The position numbers and the translations under genes were made by a program. A DNA stretch of 64,000 nt from Ignavibacteriales bacterium (GTDB lineage Bacteria > Bacteroidota > Ignavibacteria > Ignavibacteriales > Ignavibacteriaceae), in contig CP054182.1 in assembly GCA_015709675.1 (NCBI GenBank), positions 3,699,448 through 3,763,447 of the forward strand, in the 5' to 3' direction. Below the pieces are notes generated by a model. It was not told the DNA's origin. It was given only the letters and a program-made list of their open reading frames with translations, and did not search any database. Below are positions 7,921 to 57,417 of this stretch, one piece after another. The stretch's first letter is position 1. Every line of letters starts with the position of its first letter.

Positions 7921-10900
7921 TTATTTCAAAAGATTCATCTTTCTTACCAGCCGGGTATCTCCTGCCCGTAGTTCATAAAGATATATACCTGAGGCCAGTC
8001 CCTCAGAGCGGAATGTAACCGAGTGATTTCCTGCCTGACGGTATCCCTCATCAAGTATCATGATTCTTCTTCCGAGCATGTCATAGACAGAAAGAGTTAC
8101 TCTTGATGCCTGCGGAAGCGCGTATTGTATCACCGTTGAAGGATTAAAAGGATTCGGAAAATTCTGACTCAGCATATATCCGGCTGGAAGTATTTCCGTA
8201 TCTTCAGCATCTGAAGGTATAAATACAGTAGGGTCAGGAATGCCATCCCCGTTAAGATCGGGGGTAATTGCAGCCAGGTAAATCAGACTATCCGGACCGG
8301 CATTGCCATCCACATCAGGGTTATCCGGCATTGCATCTCCGGCGCCATAGTTAAATCCTCCCGCAACCAGAGTCACAAACTTTAGTTTTACATTCTGCGG
8401 TACCAGACCTGCACCAAGACCGTAGAGATCATCCCACGCAACGGCAAACTCTAACCCTCGTGCCTGAGTGCCTCTTATGCCGTTTATTTTAGAAGTAAGA
8501 TTCGTACTGTTATTTTCAGCAGTTGAATAAAAGACCGGTGCCGTGGTGTGATATGCCGCAAGGAAGAAATCAACCGCATCTTCCGGACGGAAACGGAAAT
8601 TCTTGGCGTAATCACCAAGATAGCCGGAGTTCGAATTAAAGTTTGTGACTCCCCCCGCGATGCCGGCATCCATATATATCATCATGGTATTGTAGGTATC
8701 GTTCAGGATATAATCCACTCCCACATAGAGTGAATCAGCATCCCAGGTTGAGTAAAGAGCGAGCAGTTCATTATTGACAGAATCCACAGGCCGCCAGTAG
8801 CTGTCGGTATCGCTGTCAGCAGCAATCTGCCATTGAGCGAGCCAGTCACCATTGCCGACATTCACTGATCCGTCTATAAAGGGCTTGCCGTAAGTTGCAA
8901 TGATGCTGTCTGTATTTTCCCTGACGCGGAGAGAGAATGATGCCGATCCAAAAGCACCCTTGCCGTCAGCAACCTGCACCGTTACCGCATATATACCGGT
9001 ATCCTCAACCGCGGGAGTTCCGCTTATGGTGCCGCTGAGCTGGCCAATATTAAGAAACCCGGGAGACTGAACTAACGAATAGCGCAGTGTATCATTATCT
9101 GCATCTGCGGCTGCCACCTGAATCTCAAATCTTCTGGTTGCTCTTACCACGGTATCTGCAATTGCCTGAACCACAGGAGCGCTGTTTGGCAGAACCATTA
9201 CACTGAACGTATCAACAACCGAAGCGCCCTGTAAATCTGATATATTCAGAATGACCGTTGAGCTGCCTGCAGCCGATGAACCCGGAGTGCCCTGAAGCAG
9301 TCCGGATGAAGATATACTCAGCCAGGATGGATTTCCTGATAATGTATAGTTAAGCGAGGAGCTGTTTACATCAAAAGCACTTACCTGATAAGCAAACGCG
9401 GAATTGGTATAAGCAGTCTGATCAGGAACAGGCAGCATAACCGGTGGATGATTGATGCTCTGTGTTGTATCGGGCACATATAACGTAAAGCTTCTGGGAG
9501 GAACCCACAGTTTAATTCGGTTCTTGAATCCGCCAGGTGAAGGACCGACCACCTGCTTATTCACATCCCGTCCAGTATAATCTTTATACCAGCTCCCGAT
9601 GGGGAGTTCTGTATCAACCCAGACATCAATCCACTGAGCGGGATTATCGTTAATGAGCAGATATCCGCCCGGCAGATTGCCAAAACCGTTTCTTCTTGCC
9701 ACATATATATCACGGGCAAGTGAGGTCTGATCCTGATTTCCGTCCTGCCGTATGTAGTAGGCATTCAGACCGCCCCGTTTTGTTGTACCGCCGCCGATGA
9801 ACTTCTGCCTGATCCAGATAAGAGTATCAATCTTTCCGCCAAAGCCGTAATCAACATAGTCCTTAAAGAAAACACTTGGCCTTCCTTCAGAAAAAAGGAT
9901 ATATGCGTAGGCAAGCATTTTATCAGTCATAATGGGGTCATGCCCGTTGGCGATGCTGCCATCCCATCCGATCCTATCCACATCATGATTCTCTACCCAG
10001 GTGGAGACGTCAAACCCTGACATACCTGCGTTAATAAGACCCGCACCGTCAAGAAAGGTCATATCAAAACTTCCGGAGGTATTGTTGCACATATCGCGCA
10101 GAGTAAATCTGAGCGGGAAGTCGAACATCGCCACATCGCCGCCGTTCACATTCTGCGTCTGATTAAACCAATACATAATATCATTTGTGCCGCCATAATA
10201 TTCAGCCACGGCATAGTTTGAACCGGGAATGCCCTGCAGCCACTGCCCCATGAAGACCGGGTCAATTCCCTTTACTGCATCAATCCGGAATCCCTTAAAG
10301 CCGATCTCATTAATAAGATATTTTCCCCAGGCTATCAGACTGTCACGAACCGAAGGTTTATCATGTGCCAGCCACTCGCCGAATCCGAATATCGGATCTT
10401 CAGGCCCATGGTAAGGAGGGTTCACATCACAGGTAAGCTGATTGGGGTAAAAGTCAGATGCATTTTTCTTAAATCTTCCTGAACCGGCAGGATAATTAAA
10501 AAGCAGCCAGTTGGAGTCCCGGTATGCAGGGTAGGGTTCACAGTCAACCGGTATCAGCGCTTCACCGCCGTTCATGTGGTTCATCACAGCATCAGCAAAA
10601 ACATCAATTCCGACATTGTTAAATGCAGCAACGGAACGAATCAGTTCTTCCCTGCTGCCAAATCGGGTTTCGCGGGAACCCTTCTGATTGAATTCACCAA
10701 AATCATAATGATCATACGGATCATAGCCCATGGAGAATCCGCCGGCTGCACCTTTTACGGGAGAAGGAAACCAGATTCCGGAGAATCCGGCAGATGCCAG
10801 GCGGGGAGCCATTTTAGCAAGGGAATCCCACCAGATTCCGCCCGGAGGAGAATTCCAGTAGAAGCCCTGCAGATAGACATCGGACTTAGGATTGCTCAGA

Positions 10901-10977
10901 AGCTGTGAAGGATTCTCCTGAGCCCTGATAAATCCGGTAACTAAAATCGCGATACATAAAAGCCGGTACATATTCAT
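7921..10977 (-). CDS. T9SS-exported alpha-amylase (GH13) with tandem Ig-like domains
   Basis: I chose the ATG at 10977 (10971 is an alternative) because it begins a good signal peptide, MNMYRLLCIAILVTGFIRAQ; the reading frame extends upstream to 11088 but that part is not signal-like. The GH13 domain (residues 30-480) has all four family motifs: DAVMNH (129-134), GFRIDAVKG with nucleophile Asp233, VAEYYGG with acid/base Glu259, and VENHDVDR with Asp332. Two putative Ig/cadherin-like domains follow, then a beta-sandwich domain with an Asp-rich DLNGDGIPDP calcium-like loop. The protein ends in a T9SS sorting domain beginning near NFPNPFNPST. It should hydrolyse alpha-glucans outside the cell or at the surface. 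malQ at 41.5-43.0 kb could handle the imported maltodextrins, but that link is inferred. Confidence 0.92.
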   Translation of the reverse strand: MNMYRLLCIAILVTGFIRAQENPSQLLSNPKSDVYLQGFYWNSPPGGIWWDSLAKMAPRLASAGFSGIWFPSPVKGAAGGFSMGYDPYDHYDFGEFNQKGSRETRFGSREELIRSVAAFNNVGIDVFADAVMNHMNGGEALIPVDCEPYPAYRDSNWLLFNYPAGSGRFKKNASDFYPNQLTCDVNPPYHGPEDPIFGFGEWLAHDKPSVRDSLIAWGKYLINEIGFKGFRIDAVKGIDPVFMGQWLQGIPGSNYAVAEYYGGTNDIMYWFNQTQNVNGGDVAMFDFPLRFTLRDMCNNTSGSFDMTFLDGAGLINAGMSGFDVSTWVENHDVDRIGWDGSIANGHDPIMTDKMLAYAYILFSEGRPSVFFKDYVDYGFGGKIDTLIWIRQKFIGGGTTKRGGLNAYYIRQDGNQDQTSLARDIYVARRNGFGNLPGGYLLINDNPAQWIDVWVDTELPIGSWYKDYTGRDVNKQVVGPSPGGFKNRIKLWVPPRSFTLYVPDTTQSINHPPVMLPVPDQTAYTNSAFAYQVSAFDVNSSSLNYTLSGNPSWLSISSSGLLQGTPGSSAAGSSTVILNISDLQGASVVDTFSVMVLPNSAPVVQAIADTVVRATRRFEIQVAAADADNDTLRYSLVQSPGFLNIGQLSGTISGTPAVEDTGIYAVTVQVADGKGAFGSASFSLRVRENTDSIIATYGKPFIDGSVNVGNGDWLAQWQIAADSDTDSYWRPVDSVNNELLALYSTWDADSLYVGVDYILNDTYNTMMIYMDAGIAGGVTNFNSNSGYLGDYAKNFRFRPEDAVDFFLAAYHTTAPVFYSTAENNSTNLTSKINGIRGTQARGLEFAVAWDDLYGLGAGLVPQNVKLKFVTLVAGGFNYGAGDAMPDNPDVDGNAGPDSLIYLAAITPDLNGDGIPDPTVFIPSDAEDTEILPAGYMLSQNFPNPFNPSTVIQYALPQASRVTLSVYDMLGRRIMILDEGYRQAGNHSVTFRSEGLASGIYLYELRAGDTRLVRKMNLLK

Positions 10978-11261
10978 ATAAAAGCTGATGAGTTTGTGAC
11001 AGATAAACCCTGCGGACGTACACTCTCTTTTACGCACCGCGGCGGGAAAAATAATTTGAACAATGCGAAAAGATACCAAAATCCGCATATTTGGGCAAAA
11101 AAGAGAAGGGAGTCTCTCTCGGATTCACATATGGCAGAATTACCGGGCAACTGAGTTATGCAAAAAGAAGAGAAGTTTACCTCTCTCCGTTTTAATTTCT
11201 GTAGAGACTTTCGAAGAAATTTATCAAATTTGCCTGATACCAATTTTAATTTTTTAGAATA

Positions 11262-11462
11262 ATGGAATTACAGCAGCCCCTTAGTAATGTACAGGAAGAA
11301 GTCCTGAAATTGTACTCTCTTAATCTGAGTCCTGAAGAGCTGACCGAGCTTAAAACTTTGTTGGGAAAGTTTTATGCACTGAAGGCAAGCAGAGAAGCAG
11401 ATCAGGTATGGGAAAGGGAACAGTTATCGGATGATATCATGGATCAGTGGCTGTCAAAGTAA
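11262..11462 (+). CDS. Small 66-aa protein, antitoxin-like
   Basis: This short protein is acidic and helical. It begins MELQQPLSNVQEEVLKLYS and ends WEREQLSDDIMDQWLSK. Small proteins with this kind of 'Q..LLKLYS...L.ELK..LA.FYA.KA....W...LSDE.MD.WL' layout occur in Bacteroidota and cyanobacteria, often next to PIN-type toxins, so an antitoxin role is possible; this is recalled family resemblance and not proven here. No toxin gene is next to it. recQ starts 27 bp downstream, so the two may share a transcript. The ATG follows an AT-rich leader with no clear ribosome binding site. Confidence 0.6.
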   Translation: MELQQPLSNVQEEVLKLYSLNLSPEELTELKTLLGKFYALKASREADQVWEREQLSDDIMDQWLSK

Positions 11463-11489
11463 AAATACTTCAGTAAGGGGATAATATAT

Positions 11490-14111
11490 ATGGACCTCCG
11501 CAAACTTCTCGAACAACACTTCAGCTACCCTGACTTCCGGCCGGGGCAGAAGGAGATTGTTGAATCGGTAATCAAGGGGGAAAACGTTCTTGCCATACTC
11601 CCGACCGGTGCGGGTAAATCACTTTGTTTTCAGCTGCCCGCTCTGATCGCACCCGGATTTTCCATTGTCATCTCCCCCCTGATTGCTCTTATGAAAGATC
11701 AGGTGGATACGCTTAATAAAAATGAACTGCGCGCAGGATATATCAACAGTTCCATCAGTATGGATGAGATTGAAACAGTCTTCAGCAGAATACGTGCCGG
11801 TAAAATCAAAATCCTCTATGTCTCCCCCGAACGGCTGGCTGTTGCATCATTTGCTGACCGGATCAAAGAGATGAAGCCCCACTACTGCTTTGTGGATGAG
11901 GCACACTGTATATCAGAATGGGGACATAACTTCCGCCCGGAATACCGCCGCATAAAAAAGTTTAACGAATATACCGGAGTAACAAAAGTCTCTGCCTTCA
12001 CTGCAACGGCCACACCCGAAGTAGCTTCCGATATCATAAAGCAGCTCGGGATGAAGGGAGCAAAACTACATGTTCGCGGTTTTGAGCGCGAAAATCTTGC
12101 CCTGCATGTTATCCGCACCAAGCGCAAAAAGGAAAAAGTTCTTGAACTGCTTACGATGAATGAAACTCCCGCGATCATCTACGCGGCATCCCGTAAGCAG
12201 ACCGAAGAACTTTATGAATATCTTACATTAAATAAGATCACCTGTTCCTTCTACCACGCCGGACTTCATGCAGAGCAGAGGAAGGCAATTCAGGAAAACT
12301 TTCTGCAGGGGAGGACAAAGATTATCATAGCCACCAATGCATTCGGAATGGGCATTGATAAAGCTGATATCAGGATGGTGATTCACTACAGCATACCCGG
12401 CTCACCGGAAAATTATTATCAGGAGATTGGAAGAGCCGGACGGGACGGAAAAGAATCAAACGCCTTTCTGTTGTTTGACAACAAGGATATACGGATACAG
12501 GAATTGTTCATTAAAAGTGCATTCCCCTCCCGTGAACAGGTGGAAAGAATCTACGATGCTGTGTGTGATTATGCCGGCTATCGCATCGGTCAGAAAGACG
12601 ATAAACCGGTTGAGATCAACTATGATTATATCAAGAGGGCTGCCGGAACCACTCTCACCAGATCACTCATTGACTCAGCGCTCAAAATCCTTGAAGAGAC
12701 CGGCTATATTCATTTTACTTCTTATGCTCATGTAAAGACTGCATTCCGTTTTATTATCAGTCCCTCAGACCTAAAGGAGTTTCTCAAGAAGAATATCAAC
12801 GCGCCATACTCTGACACAGTTATTAAAATCCTGCAGGACTACGGCGGAGCACCATTCAACGGAAAATCCCGTATTGATCTTGTAAAACTTGCCAAAGACC
12901 TTGAAACTGAAGAACGGCTGATTGACGCACAGCTTTCTGAACTCGATGCACTCAGCATTATTGACTATGACCGTCCGTTCCTCAAAGAAAGCATTGTGTT
13001 TACCTATCCGAGGATTAATCCTAACCGGCTGATTATTGAAACTCGGTCTAACGATCAGGCATATCTTCTTTCAAAGAAGAAACTCGAGAAAATGACCGCT
13101 TTTGCCTTTACCAACGACTGCCGGTTTAAGTTCCTGCTGGAGTATTTCGGGGAAAACGTGCCGGGCTACTCCTGCAAAAAGTGCGATATCTGCAAGTCAG
13201 GTCCCCTGCTTACTGATGATACGCTGGAGTATATACAGGAACTTATTCTGAAGTTTGTCTACTCTGAAGACAAGGGAATAAGCACCGTAAATCTGATCGC
13301 GGTTCTCACAGGAAAAAGCACATCAAAAAAATATGCTGAGAAGAAGGAGTTCCTCGGCGCGCTGCACTCATACACAAAGAATGAACTCCTCAGCGTGGCA
13401 GATAATCTGGCTACCTTCGGACTCCTTAAATCGTCCGGAAAATCCAATGACCGGCTTTATATAACCAATAAAGGCATACAATATCTCACTGCTCGCGGAG
13501 TAATCCAGACAACCGAATATCCCAAAGAGCAGTACGAAGAAAGTCTTGAACTCTTCAACCTGCTCAGGAGCGTGCGCAATGAAATAGCAGCCAAATTCAG
13601 CCAGCCGCCGTTTATCCTCTGTGCGGATGAAATCCTGAAGGAGATTGTGAACCGCAGACCGGAAACACGCTCAGAACTGCTTCAGATAAAGGGTGTTAAC
13701 GAGCGGATGTTCACCAAAGCCGGGGAGCAGTTTCTTGATGTGATCGTCAAATTTAAAAAGGGAGAGAGAACAATACCTGATAATCTGAAGGCGGAAACAC
13801 TGCCGCAAAACATTATCGAAACACACCGGCTGCTGCTTGAAGGATATACCTTGAAAGGAATAGCGGAAGTGAGAAAACTTCAGGAAGCTGTGATTTCCAT
13901 GCAGATTGAATCAATTATAGATTTTGAACCCTCCCTGTCAATTGACGCACTCATTCCGGGTGAAAATAAGGTATTCATTGAGGAAGCGATTAAGGCCGGT
14001 AATTTTAATCTGCAGGAAATAAAGAAAAAAGTCCCCGCGTATATAACATTCCCCGAAATCAGAATAGTCTTAGCAAAACATCACGCACAGAATAAACGAT
14101 ATCAAATATGA
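11490..14111 (+). CDS. recQ: RecQ ATP-dependent DNA helicase, long form
   Basis: The 873-residue protein carries the RecQ helicase core: motif [16 protein letters not shown] (about 36-50), the DEAH box [20 protein letters not shown], and motif [15 protein letters not shown]. The RQC zinc-binding region has its cysteines at [12 protein letters not shown] and CKKCDICK. An HRDC domain follows (about residues 685-760). The last 90 residues resemble the helix-turn-helix extension (HTH_40) found in many Bacteroidota RecQ proteins, which makes it some 260 residues longer than the E. coli enzyme. It unwinds DNA 3' to 5' in recombination and fork repair. An AAGGGG lies 13 bp before the ATG. Confidence 0.95.
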
Positions 14112-49601: not shown

Positions 49602-51032
49602 TTAGCTGTCAACACCGGCAGCATACGCATAAAGTGATGCAGGAAGGAAATTGAGTTCAATCCCGTCATGAACAATCTGAGTCTGCTTATCTATGGTGGT
49701 TATGGTTGCCGCAGAGAGTTTGTTTTGACTGCAGAATGAAAGGAGACTCTTCAACTCATGCGGTTTTTCAACATAACGGTTGCTCCATTTAATCTCAAGA
49801 GCCCATTCCGGCTTCAGTTTTCCTGCATGAAGCTGAACCATATCAACCTCACCCTCTTTTCTTCCGGTTTTCCATTTTGCATAATGGAGACGGCTGTGCC
49901 CCCGGTGCATCCACTGGGAGTAAATAGCAGTTTCAACCATACTCCCCGACTCATCATCAGATGCTGCAACAGGTGCAAAAAGAGCTGTGCGAAGCGATGA
50001 ATTGGTTAAATATACCTTAAATCCGGTAATCCGCTTAAAGTAACGGGCATTCTCATCAACCTTTGTTACCACATTTATTAAAAATGCAGCTTCAAGATAT
50101 TCTATATATCTTTTTATCACCTCGGTTTTCAGACCGCTGTCCTTTGCTATGGTCTGGGGCGAAAATTCCTTTCCGGTATTGTAAGCAAGATAGGTAAAGA
50201 ACCGGTTTAACTCCTGAACATCCCTGATGCCATATATACCGGGCAGGTCCCGCAGGAGCACCTTGTCAATGATATCGTTTTTAATGTATTCCGGCAAATC
50301 ATTGCGTACGGTTGTATCAAAGAGAATCTCAGGATACCCGCCATAGTTTATATATCTGAAGAACTGCTCATTGAGTGCCTTTATATCAAAGCTCTTATAA
50401 AAGGGAATCTTTTTCCCTTCAGAGAGGATCTCCGTTGGCTGCACCAGATGTTCCATATCTCTCAGGTAGAGAAACTCCTGAAAGGTAAGTGGAGGCAGGA
50501 TGAAATCATGAAAACGCCCTGCTCCGCTTTCCGTGCTTCGTAAACGTAATGCAGCAGCAGCCGATCCGGATACCACGAACTTCGTTTTGGGATATCTGTC
50601 AGTCAGCACTTTCAGATGACGCTCCCAGTCTTTCAGATACTGAATCTCATCAAAAAATACATAATTGCCTTCCATCCGCTCTCTGCCGGAGGCCTTTACC
50701 GCCAGATGCAGAAGTTCTTCAAGACCCATATTGATGTAAAGCGGGTTATCAATCCCAACAAAAAAAATGGAATCCGGCGCAGCGTTTTTCTTTATCAATT
50801 CCTGGATGGCATGATACAGCATCACGGTTTTGCCAACGCGGCGCGGCCCCATAAGCAGAATAGTTCTCCTCAGCGAAATATCCTTAATCTGCGGAAAGAT
50901 CAGATCAAAGTAGAGCCGTCTTTTCATTCTGTTCAGAGAGTCATCAATGGATTTTGACTTCCACCAGGGGTTTTCAGATACCAGCCGCTCTATGATCTTT
51001 TCTGTCGGAATAGTATAAGAATTTGCTGTCAT
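49602..51032 (-). CDS. AAA ATPase with C-terminal DUF4143
   Basis: The 476-residue protein has an AAA_14 ATPase domain with Walker A GPRRVGKT (62-69) and Walker B YVFFDEIQYL (124-133), the sensor-like VVSGSAAAALRLRSTES, and a C-terminal DUF4143 domain with a nuclease-like ALEIKWSNRYVEKPHELKSL segment (about 424-443). These proteins are widespread, patchily distributed and of unknown function; a mobile or defence role has been suggested. The gene has no operon partner. It is bracketed by large repeat copies on both sides, which sets it off from its surroundings. Confidence 0.85.
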   Translation of the reverse strand: MTANSYTIPTEKIIERLVSENPWWKSKSIDDSLNRMKRRLYFDLIFPQIKDISLRRTILLMGPRRVGKTVMLYHAIQELIKKNAAPDSIFFVGIDNPLYINMGLEELLHLAVKASGRERMEGNYVFFDEIQYLKDWERHLKVLTDRYPKTKFVVSGSAAAALRLRSTESGAGRFHDFILPPLTFQEFLYLRDMEHLVQPTEILSEGKKIPFYKSFDIKALNEQFFRYINYGGYPEILFDTTVRNDLPEYIKNDIIDKVLLRDLPGIYGIRDVQELNRFFTYLAYNTGKEFSPQTIAKDSGLKTEVIKRYIEYLEAAFLINVVTKVDENARYFKRITGFKVYLTNSSLRTALFAPVAASDDESGSMVETAIYSQWMHRGHSRLHYAKWKTGRKEGEVDMVQLHAGKLKPEWALEIKWSNRYVEKPHELKSLLSFCSQNKLSAATITTIDKQTQIVHDGIELNFLPASLYAYAAGVDS

Positions 51033-54684: not shown

Positions 54685-54859
54685 TTTATTTCCGTATAAA
54701 AAATATCTGCCACTTACTACGTATTAAAACATAAAGCCGGATTTTGTTCGAATCTCTCAATCAATAGGTATTAGCTATTCTTTTGCCAATAGAATGTATT
54801 TTACATTATTAAACTATAATTCTAAGCGTACAAATTTCAGATTAATTTCAAATTATATT

Positions 54860-57412
54860 TTATTTGGGTGAAATTCCTAATAGGTGACTGTACTTCTGCT
54901 TGTCCTGAAATGTAACTTCATGTAACGAAACATAATTTATATAAATATGACGTAGAATTTTTTTAGACATCTCAGATGTACCCTTTCCATTCATAAATTT
55001 CTTAATATCCCTTTCGCTAATAAATTTTCCATATTTCAACGTTGAGCCTAAGTAAACAAGTTCGGCTATGGGGGTATCAATTTCTTCAGAAATTTCAAGG
55101 ATGATCTTAATTAGTTTCTTTGATCCTAATGCAGATATTATATGATCGATATAACTTAAAACAATATAGAAATTGAGATTCCAGAATATTCTTTTAGCAA
55201 AATCCAATATTTTATCATGATCTAATGAGGAGTGTTTATCAGCCAAGGAAGAAGAAATACGCACCGATAGGTAATCAATTATATTCGATTGCGATTCAGG
55301 TTCTTTAATCAACTCGAATAGCGATCTTAAAATTCTAAGGTAAACAGATAAAGCTTCTTTATAAATTTCTTTTATCCAATTTCTTTCTAATGAACCCGCT
55401 CTATTCTTCAAAATAAGCCCCATCACCTCAACAGACTTTATACTTCTTCTTAGCTCATCATTAAAATTACTAATTTCCACTTCTAAATTATCAGTATCAG
55501 AATATTCACCATCTTCATTTATTATTCTTTCTTCTTCAGAGTCCTTAACTTCCAATATTTTCTTTCTATTCGTATCAGGTTCCGAAAATAGCCTTTCCTT
55601 ATTGTCTCTGATTAAACCATTGAATTCACGGTCAAACGAACCAAAATCTTCTCTTTTTAGGGTTGCCAATTCATATTTCATAAATAAAGATTTAGCATTA
55701 TTCAGCAACTCTTTTAATAATGCCTCGTTTTTTGTGTGATGACTAATAAATATAGCAATATAGGCTGATTCGTTGTTGTTTAAGTTTGTAATAATATCCT
55801 TAATAACTTCTTTACACTCGGATAAATGTTCCGCAAGATATTTTCCGATAAAATAATACTGAATGTATCTATAAGTAAATGAAATGTTTCCAAAACTATC
55901 CTCGCACAATATACGAGACGAGTACAAGTTTCTCATTAATTCTCGATATTCTATATGGAGGTTAAATTTCACTTTGTATTCATTAAAAAACTCTCCCAAC
56001 TCATCCTCGGTACATTTTGTTAACCTATTTTTATAAAGGAAATAGGAGAATTCGGTAAGCAAATTTAAATAAGTATCAATATTCTCACTTAGCACATTAC
56101 CATGCAGTGCCAAATAGATTAAAGCCTGATAACAATTACCTTGGGATGTTATTTCTTGATCTAACGGTTTTTCAATTGACAGGGATATATTGGCTATTGA
56201 GAGAATAAAAAATGGATAGGCGGGCATAATTCCATTATCAATAATCTTTCCTAATGCACTATCTATTTTCTCAGTAAGTTCGTCGAGAATTTCGTACCTT
56301 TCCCTCGTTTCGTGATTTTCAGAACCAACATAGCCATTACGCGAAATCAATTTCTGAATTAGTTCATCTCGTAGCGAAGCCTTAAATTCCCTAATTTTAA
56401 ACGATCTGTAGGGAGATTTACCAATAACAAATGTTTTGTTGAACTTAAAAATATCATCGACAATTAATATTTGATTTTGATAATCTTGCAATTCGTTCAT
56501 ATATTTTTTTGAATCAGCAAAAATATGGAAATCGTCAACAATAATCACCAATCTACTCTCCGGTATTATTGTCAAATCAAAATTTTCATATTGCTCTAAC
56601 AAAGCTCTTTTAATATTTGACTGTAGTGATCCCTTAAATTTTTTTCGTTCGCCAACAATAAAAATCGGGAAATACTTTTTTTCAAATAGTTTAACAAACA
56701 GAACTTTTGCAAAAGTTGATTTCCCTGATTGGCTTTCCCCCGCTATTATTGATCTGTTGTATTCATTGAAATGATTAATAATTACCTCAGAAGAAATATT
56801 TTTTAATCTATCATATTGGTCATTGTATTCATTTAGCTCAGGATATACAAATATATCATCAATTTTTGAGTCTCCGTATGCAGAAGATTTACTAATTAAA
56901 AATCCAACCTCAGTTAATTTACTTAAGAATTCTTGTTTTATTTTTATTGAGCATAGCTTCTTGCGGTCCTCAATCAAGTTTTTTATTTTTTCATAAACAT
57001 CCATCCATCCTGCATCGTCTGGAGAAAATTCACAAACAGGTTTTCCATCTTTAGGAATTGCTAATGTTTTTCTAAAGTACTCATCATCTTGCCATGCACA
57101 ATTTGTAAGAATAATTGGAACTACTTTTATTCCTGTTTGTATTTCTAATTCCATTCCTATATTTTTCTCTTCGTTACAAGTATTTGATGCTAAATATTCC
57201 TTTGAAACAAGACAACATAATATATCTGCGGTGTTTATGTTTTCTTTAATTACATTAATAAATATTTCGCCAGCCTTTATTTGTCTATCGCACCATACCT
57301 CAACATTCTGACTTTTTTCTAATTGCTTTAAGTGCAACAGAAATTCATCTAAATAATTGTCATTTGCGTGCGAATAACTGATAAAAATTTTTATCTTTGA
57401 ATTCGTTTCCAT
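54860..57412 (-). CDS. TIR-STAND NTPase inside the hsd locus
   Basis: The 850-residue protein begins with a TIR domain (residues 6-150): IKIFISYSHANDNYLDEF, the VWCDRQIKAGE loop, and a candidate catalytic glutamate Glu82 placed six residues after Ser76, as in NAD-cleaving TIR domains. A STAND-type P-loop NTPase follows, with Walker A GESQSGKS (225-232) and Walker B VIIVDDFHIF (289-298). The region with FTYRYIQYYFIGKYLAEHL is the usual STAND helical part, and the remaining 300 residues form a helical sensor-like tail. It lies 5 bp after hsdS and before hsdR. Base composition is strongly AT-rich compared with flanking genes. Likely function: sensing of infection followed by NAD depletion; inferred. 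Confidence 0.85.
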   Translation of the reverse strand: METNSKIKIFISYSHANDNYLDEFLLHLKQLEKSQNVEVWCDRQIKAGEIFINVIKENINTADILCCLVSKEYLASNTCNEEKNIGMELEIQTGIKVVPIILTNCAWQDDEYFRKTLAIPKDGKPVCEFSPDDAGWMDVYEKIKNLIEDRKKLCSIKIKQEFLSKLTEVGFLISKSSAYGDSKIDDIFVYPELNEYNDQYDRLKNISSEVIINHFNEYNRSIIAGESQSGKSTFAKVLFVKLFEKKYFPIFIVGERKKFKGSLQSNIKRALLEQYENFDLTIIPESRLVIIVDDFHIFADSKKYMNELQDYQNQILIVDDIFKFNKTFVIGKSPYRSFKIREFKASLRDELIQKLISRNGYVGSENHETRERYEILDELTEKIDSALGKIIDNGIMPAYPFFILSIANISLSIEKPLDQEITSQGNCYQALIYLALHGNVLSENIDTYLNLLTEFSYFLYKNRLTKCTEDELGEFFNEYKVKFNLHIEYRELMRNLYSSRILCEDSFGNISFTYRYIQYYFIGKYLAEHLSECKEVIKDIITNLNNNESAYIAIFISHHTKNEALLKELLNNAKSLFMKYELATLKREDFGSFDREFNGLIRDNKERLFSEPDTNRKKILEVKDSEEERIINEDGEYSDTDNLEVEISNFNDELRRSIKSVEVMGLILKNRAGSLERNWIKEIYKEALSVYLRILRSLFELIKEPESQSNIIDYLSVRISSSLADKHSSLDHDKILDFAKRIFWNLNFYIVLSYIDHIISALGSKKLIKIILEISEEIDTPIAELVYLGSTLKYGKFISERDIKKFMNGKGTSEMSKKILRHIYINYVSLHEVTFQDKQKYSHLLGISPK

Positions 57413-57417
57413 GTTCT

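Follow-up and report, generated by a model that had tools for sequence, protein, structure and literature searches.

Genomic context of the TIR-STAND gene

The window (the whole 64-kb stretch of DNA that was analysed) carries on its minus strand a type I restriction-modification operon with the gene order hsdM, a 146-aa ORF, hsdS, a TIR-STAND gene and hsdR (Table 1). As proposed in the initial annotation, the TIR-STAND gene is real and lies between hsdS and hsdR; coordinates and Pfam assignments agree on this placement, and the gap to hsdS measures 5 bp (positions 57413–57417). The plus strand over positions 54860–57412 is full of stop codons. Compared with shuffled sequences, terminator-like sites were found in excess overall, with none among those listed located in the spacer between the TIR-STAND gene and hsdR, and promoter-like sites were fewer than in the shuffles. 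The 4.2-Mb genome contains three hsdS loci and one TIR-STAND copy, and the probability that the gene came to lie beside an hsdS by chance is estimated to be well under 1%.

The ORF in the gap between hsdM and hsdS shares 40% and 27% identity with residues 168–310 of two proteins encoded in other hsd loci (L140 and L049, respectively) and probably represents a decayed second cargo gene. In both of these loci, the full-length relative is followed by a PIN-like gene. Downstream of hsdR, a protein with AAA_14 and DUF4143 domains (PADLOC PDC-S01) is encoded on the same strand at positions 49602–51032.

Table 1. Position of the hsd genes and of the elements of the TIR-STAND protein (window coordinates)
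Feature	Position	Strand	Description and evidence
hsdM, type I methyltransferase	60787–59192	minus	531 aa; GC 47%; Pfam N6_Mtase 9.5e-106
146-aa ORF, hsdM–hsdS gap	59046–58606	minus	C-terminal half of a 306–310 aa hsd-cargo protein
hsdS, type I specificity subunit	58560–57418	minus	380 aa; low GC (34%); Pfam Methylase_S 2.5e-35
TIR-NACHT/STAND gene	57412–54860	minus	ORF; 850 aa, 850 codons; ATG at 57412, stop at 54860
TIR domain, residues 1–154	56951–57412	minus	Predicted NADase effector; Pfam TIR_2 and fold match
Glu82 codon, catalytic-type glutamate	57167–57169	minus	Alignment to Cat1 and plant TIRs
STAND/NACHT ATPase core, about residues 155–530	55823–56950	minus	Fold: NLRC4, NOD2, NLRP3, RPP1 TIR-NB-ARC
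Walker A, GESQSGKS, residues 225–232	56717–56740	minus	Lys231 in 48/48 relatives
C-terminal region, residues 531–850	54863–55822	minus	All-helical, presumed sensor; AlphaFold secondary structure; shared with DS-8
AT-rich spacer TIR-STAND/hsdR	54685–54859	minus	175 bp; 25% GC
hsdR, type I restriction subunit	54684–51445	minus	1079 aa; host-like GC (46%); Pfam HSDR_N, SWI2_SNF2, T1RH-like_C

Domain architecture and predicted fold

Pfam detects a TIR domain at the N-terminus (TIR_2, residues 9–110, E 3.6e-14; TIR, E 4.4e-10) and a STAND segment at residues 468–522 (nSTAND_NTPase4, E 4.3e-8). The features of a STAND/NACHT NTPase are present, namely Walker A and B motifs and a NACHT fold, and Asp293 is, like the Walker A lysine, retained in all 48 TIR-type relatives. 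Within the TIR domain, Glu82 aligns with the last glutamate of the CxDE motif in Cat1 and in plant TIRs and is kept in 45 of the 48 relatives, which bears out its earlier designation as candidate catalytic residue. A TIR fold with a catalytic-type glutamate is present, and the protein is predicted from sequence and model to be an NADase. The glutamate is absent from three TIR-STAND proteins of Streptococcaceae (L033, L034, L066), whose remainder is conserved; some branches may accordingly carry an effector other than an NADase.

An AlphaFold model built from 41 relatives (mean pLDDT 84, pTM 0.82) was used for fold searches. Residues 3–154 match the TIR domains of SPARTA, RPP1-type proteins, AbTir and RUN1 with Z-scores of 16–17, whereas residues 153–770 can be superimposed on NLRC4 over 425 residues (Z 14.3, r.m.s.d. 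5.9). For TIR and NACHT combined, the plant NLR RPP1 is a match with a Z-score of 15.9, albeit with a large r.m.s.d. Among the PDB matches listed, TIR domains and eukaryotic NLRs predominate. Together with the helical C-terminus, these matches show that the protein is built like a TIR-NLR, in which no LRR is seen. It shares the order of TIR and NB-ARC/NACHT folds with plant RPP1 and the animal proteins NLRC4 and NOD2, from which it differs by the apparent lack of an LRR, the all-helical C-terminus and a sequence identity of only about 12%. The TIR-STAND architecture given in the initial annotation is supported by both the Pfam domains and the fold matches. The C-terminal helical region is the presumed sensor.

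A TIR domain could also act as in Thoeris, where it would make a signal nucleotide for a separate effector and NAD would not be destroyed. In PADLOC, the TIR part indeed scores best against a ThsB model (94 bits), and loss of the glutamate in the three relatives would be in line with such a function. However, ThsB sits beside the gene of its effector ThsA, whereas no ThsA-type partner is located next to the TIR-STAND gene of the window, the immediate neighbours of which are hsdS and hsdR. Moreover, TIR-STAND is usually a lone gene, and, like other NLRs, the protein combines effector and sensor in a single polypeptide. A signalling role is considered very unlikely.

In some relatives the architecture is modified. 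In L084, L086, L087, L099 and L107 the TIR and STAND parts are encoded by separate adjacent or overlapping ORFs, which may reflect either naturally split systems or frameshifts. In four members of one sub-clade (L035, L080, L111, L115), an ORF of about 190–206 aa lies immediately ahead of the TIR-STAND gene or overlaps it; some of these small proteins contain a hydrophobic stretch, and they are possible partner proteins. In L046, a second, different TIR-like gene (9003–9803) precedes the TIR-STAND gene at a distance of 197 bp.

Relationship to DS-8 and PDC-S60

DS-8 is a single-protein system that protects E. coli and requires both its metallophosphatase and its NACHT domain for activity against phage (DefensePredictor, PMC13092281). 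The NCBIfam model DS8_antiphage (NF053861) matches residues 144–847 of the TIR-STAND protein with 416 bits, below its cut-off of 790 bits. The match covers model positions 295–994, leaving positions 1–294 unmatched; the N-terminus is a TIR domain where DS-8 has a metallophosphatase. A direct comparison aligned 723 aa with an E. coli DS-8 protein at 28% identity (E 1e-62); this protein itself scores 967 bits on the model. A similar relationship is seen to PDC-S60, a candidate phage defence system in PADLOC-DB v2 (172.5 bits, E 3e-51, residues 138–848; model positions 1–168 unmatched). Residues 145–832 are homologous to both DS-8 and PDC-S60.

The TIR domain is covered by neither of the PDC-S60 models, one of which starts with a segment matching DUF4062 in a further genome (G213), the other with a metallophosphatase. 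DUF4062 proteins have been reported to be TIR-like NADases (PMC13174449). The NACHT/STAND and C-terminal regions are thus held in common with DS-8 and PDC-S60, and PDC-S60 is likewise embedded in another immune system; the head is a metallophosphatase in DS-8, DUF4062-like or a metallophosphatase in PDC-S60, and a TIR domain in the window protein. These differences indicate one sensor-ATPase body equipped with at least three different effectors at its N-terminus. In a tree of the common part, two TIR clades stand apart from several metallophosphatase clades, the base being weakly supported.

The Avs models in PADLOC gave no match at E-values up to 1, a result that is compatible with distant kinship, and no named STAND defence system was identified by profile search. 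The initial annotation had regarded the make-up of the system as one that could not be named. This has to be revised, as it is largely catalogued as PDC-S60, a 'guilt-by-embedding' candidate; most PDCs are untested candidates (PMC12988326).

Genes of the DS-8 type also occur on contigs classed as viral (L112, L116, L117). The neighbours of the L116 gene are phage baseplate-like, which suggests prophage cargo.

Linkage to restriction-modification loci

A search of species-representative genomes and viral contigs yielded 74 loci, to which plasmids add a few; a single-protein scan of genome contigs and a search of annotated phages gave no match. As the pan-family alignment was too diverse for use, the TIR-STAND alignment was used instead. 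Type I hsd genes surround or adjoin the TIR-STAND gene at about 8 of 55 loci (the window, L049, L053, L061, L064, L069, L081 and L084), including L064, a C-terminal fragment in which the TIR domain is not seen. In four of these eight, the gene directly follows hsdS, with gaps of 1 bp (L049), 5 bp (window and L061) and 14 bp (L081), and in L049 and L081 it is also located before hsdR as in the window. Seven other loci touch other restriction-modification (RM) or Vsr genes (L048, L052, L055, L056, L057, L066, L107). In all, RM neighbours are found at about 15 of the 55 loci and at about half of those in the window's clade with readable flanks, proportions that are approximate because many contigs end near the gene.

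Mapped onto the tree, the type I label changes at least three times on strongly supported branches. Linkage to restriction recurs beyond chance. Most TIR-STAND relatives nevertheless have no type I neighbour, including copies on plasmids of Lactococcus, Streptococcus and Vibrio, and the E. coli DS-8 copies examined are not in hsd loci. In one locus (L038; G350:C50) a metallophosphatase-STAND gene of the DS-8 type separates hsdR from hsdS, and a GmrSD-type gene occupies the gap between hsdS and hsdM.

An alternative reading is that the protein serves as an adaptor to RM systems in general (type I, Eco57I-type, N6/N4 methyltransferases) and would respond, for instance, to the products of restriction or to phage DNA that carries modifications. 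Within the window's clade, about six loci touch type I genes and about six other RM or Vsr genes; copies flanked by methyltransferase genes show gaps of 2–11 bp (L055, L057), and in L048 an Eco57I-type enzyme is encoded 58 bp upstream. However, the RM types concerned are enzymatically unrelated and the gene order varies, many relatives lack an RM neighbour altogether, and RM loci draw cargo generally, so that an adaptor function appears very unlikely. In L055, L056 and L057, TIR-STAND abuts N6/N4 DNA methyltransferase genes at distances of -4 to 11 bp; uncharacterised proteins of 608 aa and 223 aa are also encoded there and may be the restriction partners of the methyltransferases.

The hsdS–hsdR gap as a docking slot

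The contents of the gap were surveyed in 22 loci, comprising 20 with an HsdR 54–84% identical to that of the window and two further hsd loci of the same genome. One of them (L141) has no readable hsdS, leaving 21 readable hsdS–hsdR gaps. Unrelated cargo, i.e. non-hsd genes, occupies 20 of these, the sole empty gap being that of L154 (5 bp). The locus with the closest HsdR (84%, L138) carries Hachiman HamAB; others carry PDC-S54 (L142), PD-T4-2 (L149), PDC-M04 (L155), RhuM (L152) or Nsn genes plus a PIN protein (L156). Two further slots were assigned from reading of the sequences: L143 contains HigBA-like genes, and L140 nothing but a transposase. Toxin-antitoxin genes are thus also represented among the cargo.

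Another hsd locus of the window's genome (L137; G000:C1:691000-710000) has SIR2 plus HerA (9788–12562) inserted between hsdS and hsdR, a pair predicted to be another NAD-depleting system in the same slot. In L139 (G012:C89) a 1062-aa SIR2-Argonaute fusion (8703–11888) directly follows hsdS and is itself followed by a transposase-like gene.

Tight spacing to hsdS is not confined to TIR-STAND, as HamA and PDC-S54 start 6 bp and 0 bp after hsdS. Because other cargo is equally tight, spacing was rejected as a sign of coupling.

With 30.3% compared to 46.1%, the GC content of the TIR-STAND gene lies well below that of hsdR, and each of the five linked loci tested (the window and four others) shows a drop of 14–18 points relative to its own hsdR. 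This fits separate acquisition of the TIR-STAND gene. Foreign defence genes inside hsd operons are also represented by DarTG2, which occupies the same type I slot (PMC12255303), by TgvAB and RloF (PMC11411939) and by RloC (PMC2610378), all proteins unrelated to TIR-STAND. In conclusion, the hsdS–hsdR gap of such type I loci is a hypervariable slot in which exchangeable defence cargo docks, and this probably explains the presence of the TIR-STAND gene in the operon. The conserved feature is the slot itself rather than any TIR-STAND pairing.

Coupling to the restriction enzyme or autonomous function

The position between hsdS and hsdR is also that of prrC in EcoprrI, which likewise encodes a predicted lethal effector. 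In the initial annotation, a PrrC-like guard was therefore considered. On such a reading, TIR-STAND would be silenced by HsdMSR or monitor it and deplete NAD once a phage protein disables restriction. Besides the common slot, this proposal can draw on the short distance to hsdS repeated in three other loci, on the recurrence of hsd linkage on at least three branches and on the presence of HsdS in 21 of 23 host genomes. However, PrrC combines an ABC-type ATPase with an anticodon-nuclease domain, whereas Pfam, NCBIfam and PADLOC agree on a TIR-STAND protein in the window. For PrrC, moreover, an invariable link to a type Ic system, by which it is silenced, has been reported, whereas RloC was linked in 8 of 73 cases (PMC2610378). 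With the majority of its members unlinked, the TIR-STAND family looks more like RloC than PrrC in linkage frequency.

Further observations weigh against a guard. The hsd-embedded copy of Gilvimarinus and the unlinked copy of Marinospirillum are 84% identical end to end, indicating that the presumed sensor part is unchanged by linkage. Two host genomes, both drafts, lack an HsdS match, and close spacing is characteristic of the slot as such. TgvAB, although embedded in a type I operon, defends independently of HsdR restriction activity (PMC11411939), and DS-8 works alone with the same C-terminal part (PMC13092281). After the slot survey and the comparison of the 84%-identical pair, the guard reading was demoted: in orthologous hsd loci this slot is occupied by many unrelated systems that are known to work alone, and the family itself is mostly found without an hsd neighbour. 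A guard is unlikely on these grounds and is required by none of the observations, and the same low probability applies to the version in which TIR-STAND is physically coupled to HsdMS(R), fires on a phage restriction inhibitor and is one of several guards sharing the slot.

HsdS in trans was examined as an additional line of evidence, with a match in 21 of 23 host genomes compared to 9 of 14 control genomes. It was discarded as too weak and biased, since some genomes had been chosen for hsd linkage.

Taken together, the variability of the slot, the mostly unlinked relatives, the 84%-identical pair, the genomes without HsdS and the precedents of TgvAB and DarTG2 favour an autonomous sensor. TIR-STAND is likely to be a self-sufficient, NAD-depleting abortive-infection sensor that resides as interchangeable cargo in the hsd slot. 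It should be considered that a coupled function would predict an excess of RM neighbours as well. In the proposed mechanism, the C-terminal helical region would detect a phage-specific molecule, upon which the NACHT/STAND ATPase may oligomerise. The N-terminal TIR domains clustered in this way would cleave NAD+ and stop the infected cell. The gene is presumably expressed from the hsd operon transcript, and the protein could form a second layer behind restriction without the need to sense the state of HsdMSR.

Significance

That defence genes are embedded in restriction loci is already known, and the STAND body is catalogued. What is new is that this body occurs armed with a TIR domain, that this form is linked to the phage-tested DS-8 and that it recurs in restriction loci. 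The literature searched, which covered Payne 2024, a preprint on embedded defences, via citations only, contained no report of a TIR-STAND gene in the hsd slot.

The finding joins a phage-tested sensor module (DS-8) and a candidate system (PDC-S60) to a third effector, a TIR domain, giving one NLR-like sensor body with TIR, DUF4062-like or metallophosphatase heads. Furthermore, the slot of one kind of type I locus takes up whole defence systems, several of which are predicted to deplete NAD. This raises the question whether embedded genes merely share a promoter with the restriction operon, or whether some of them sense the restriction enzyme.
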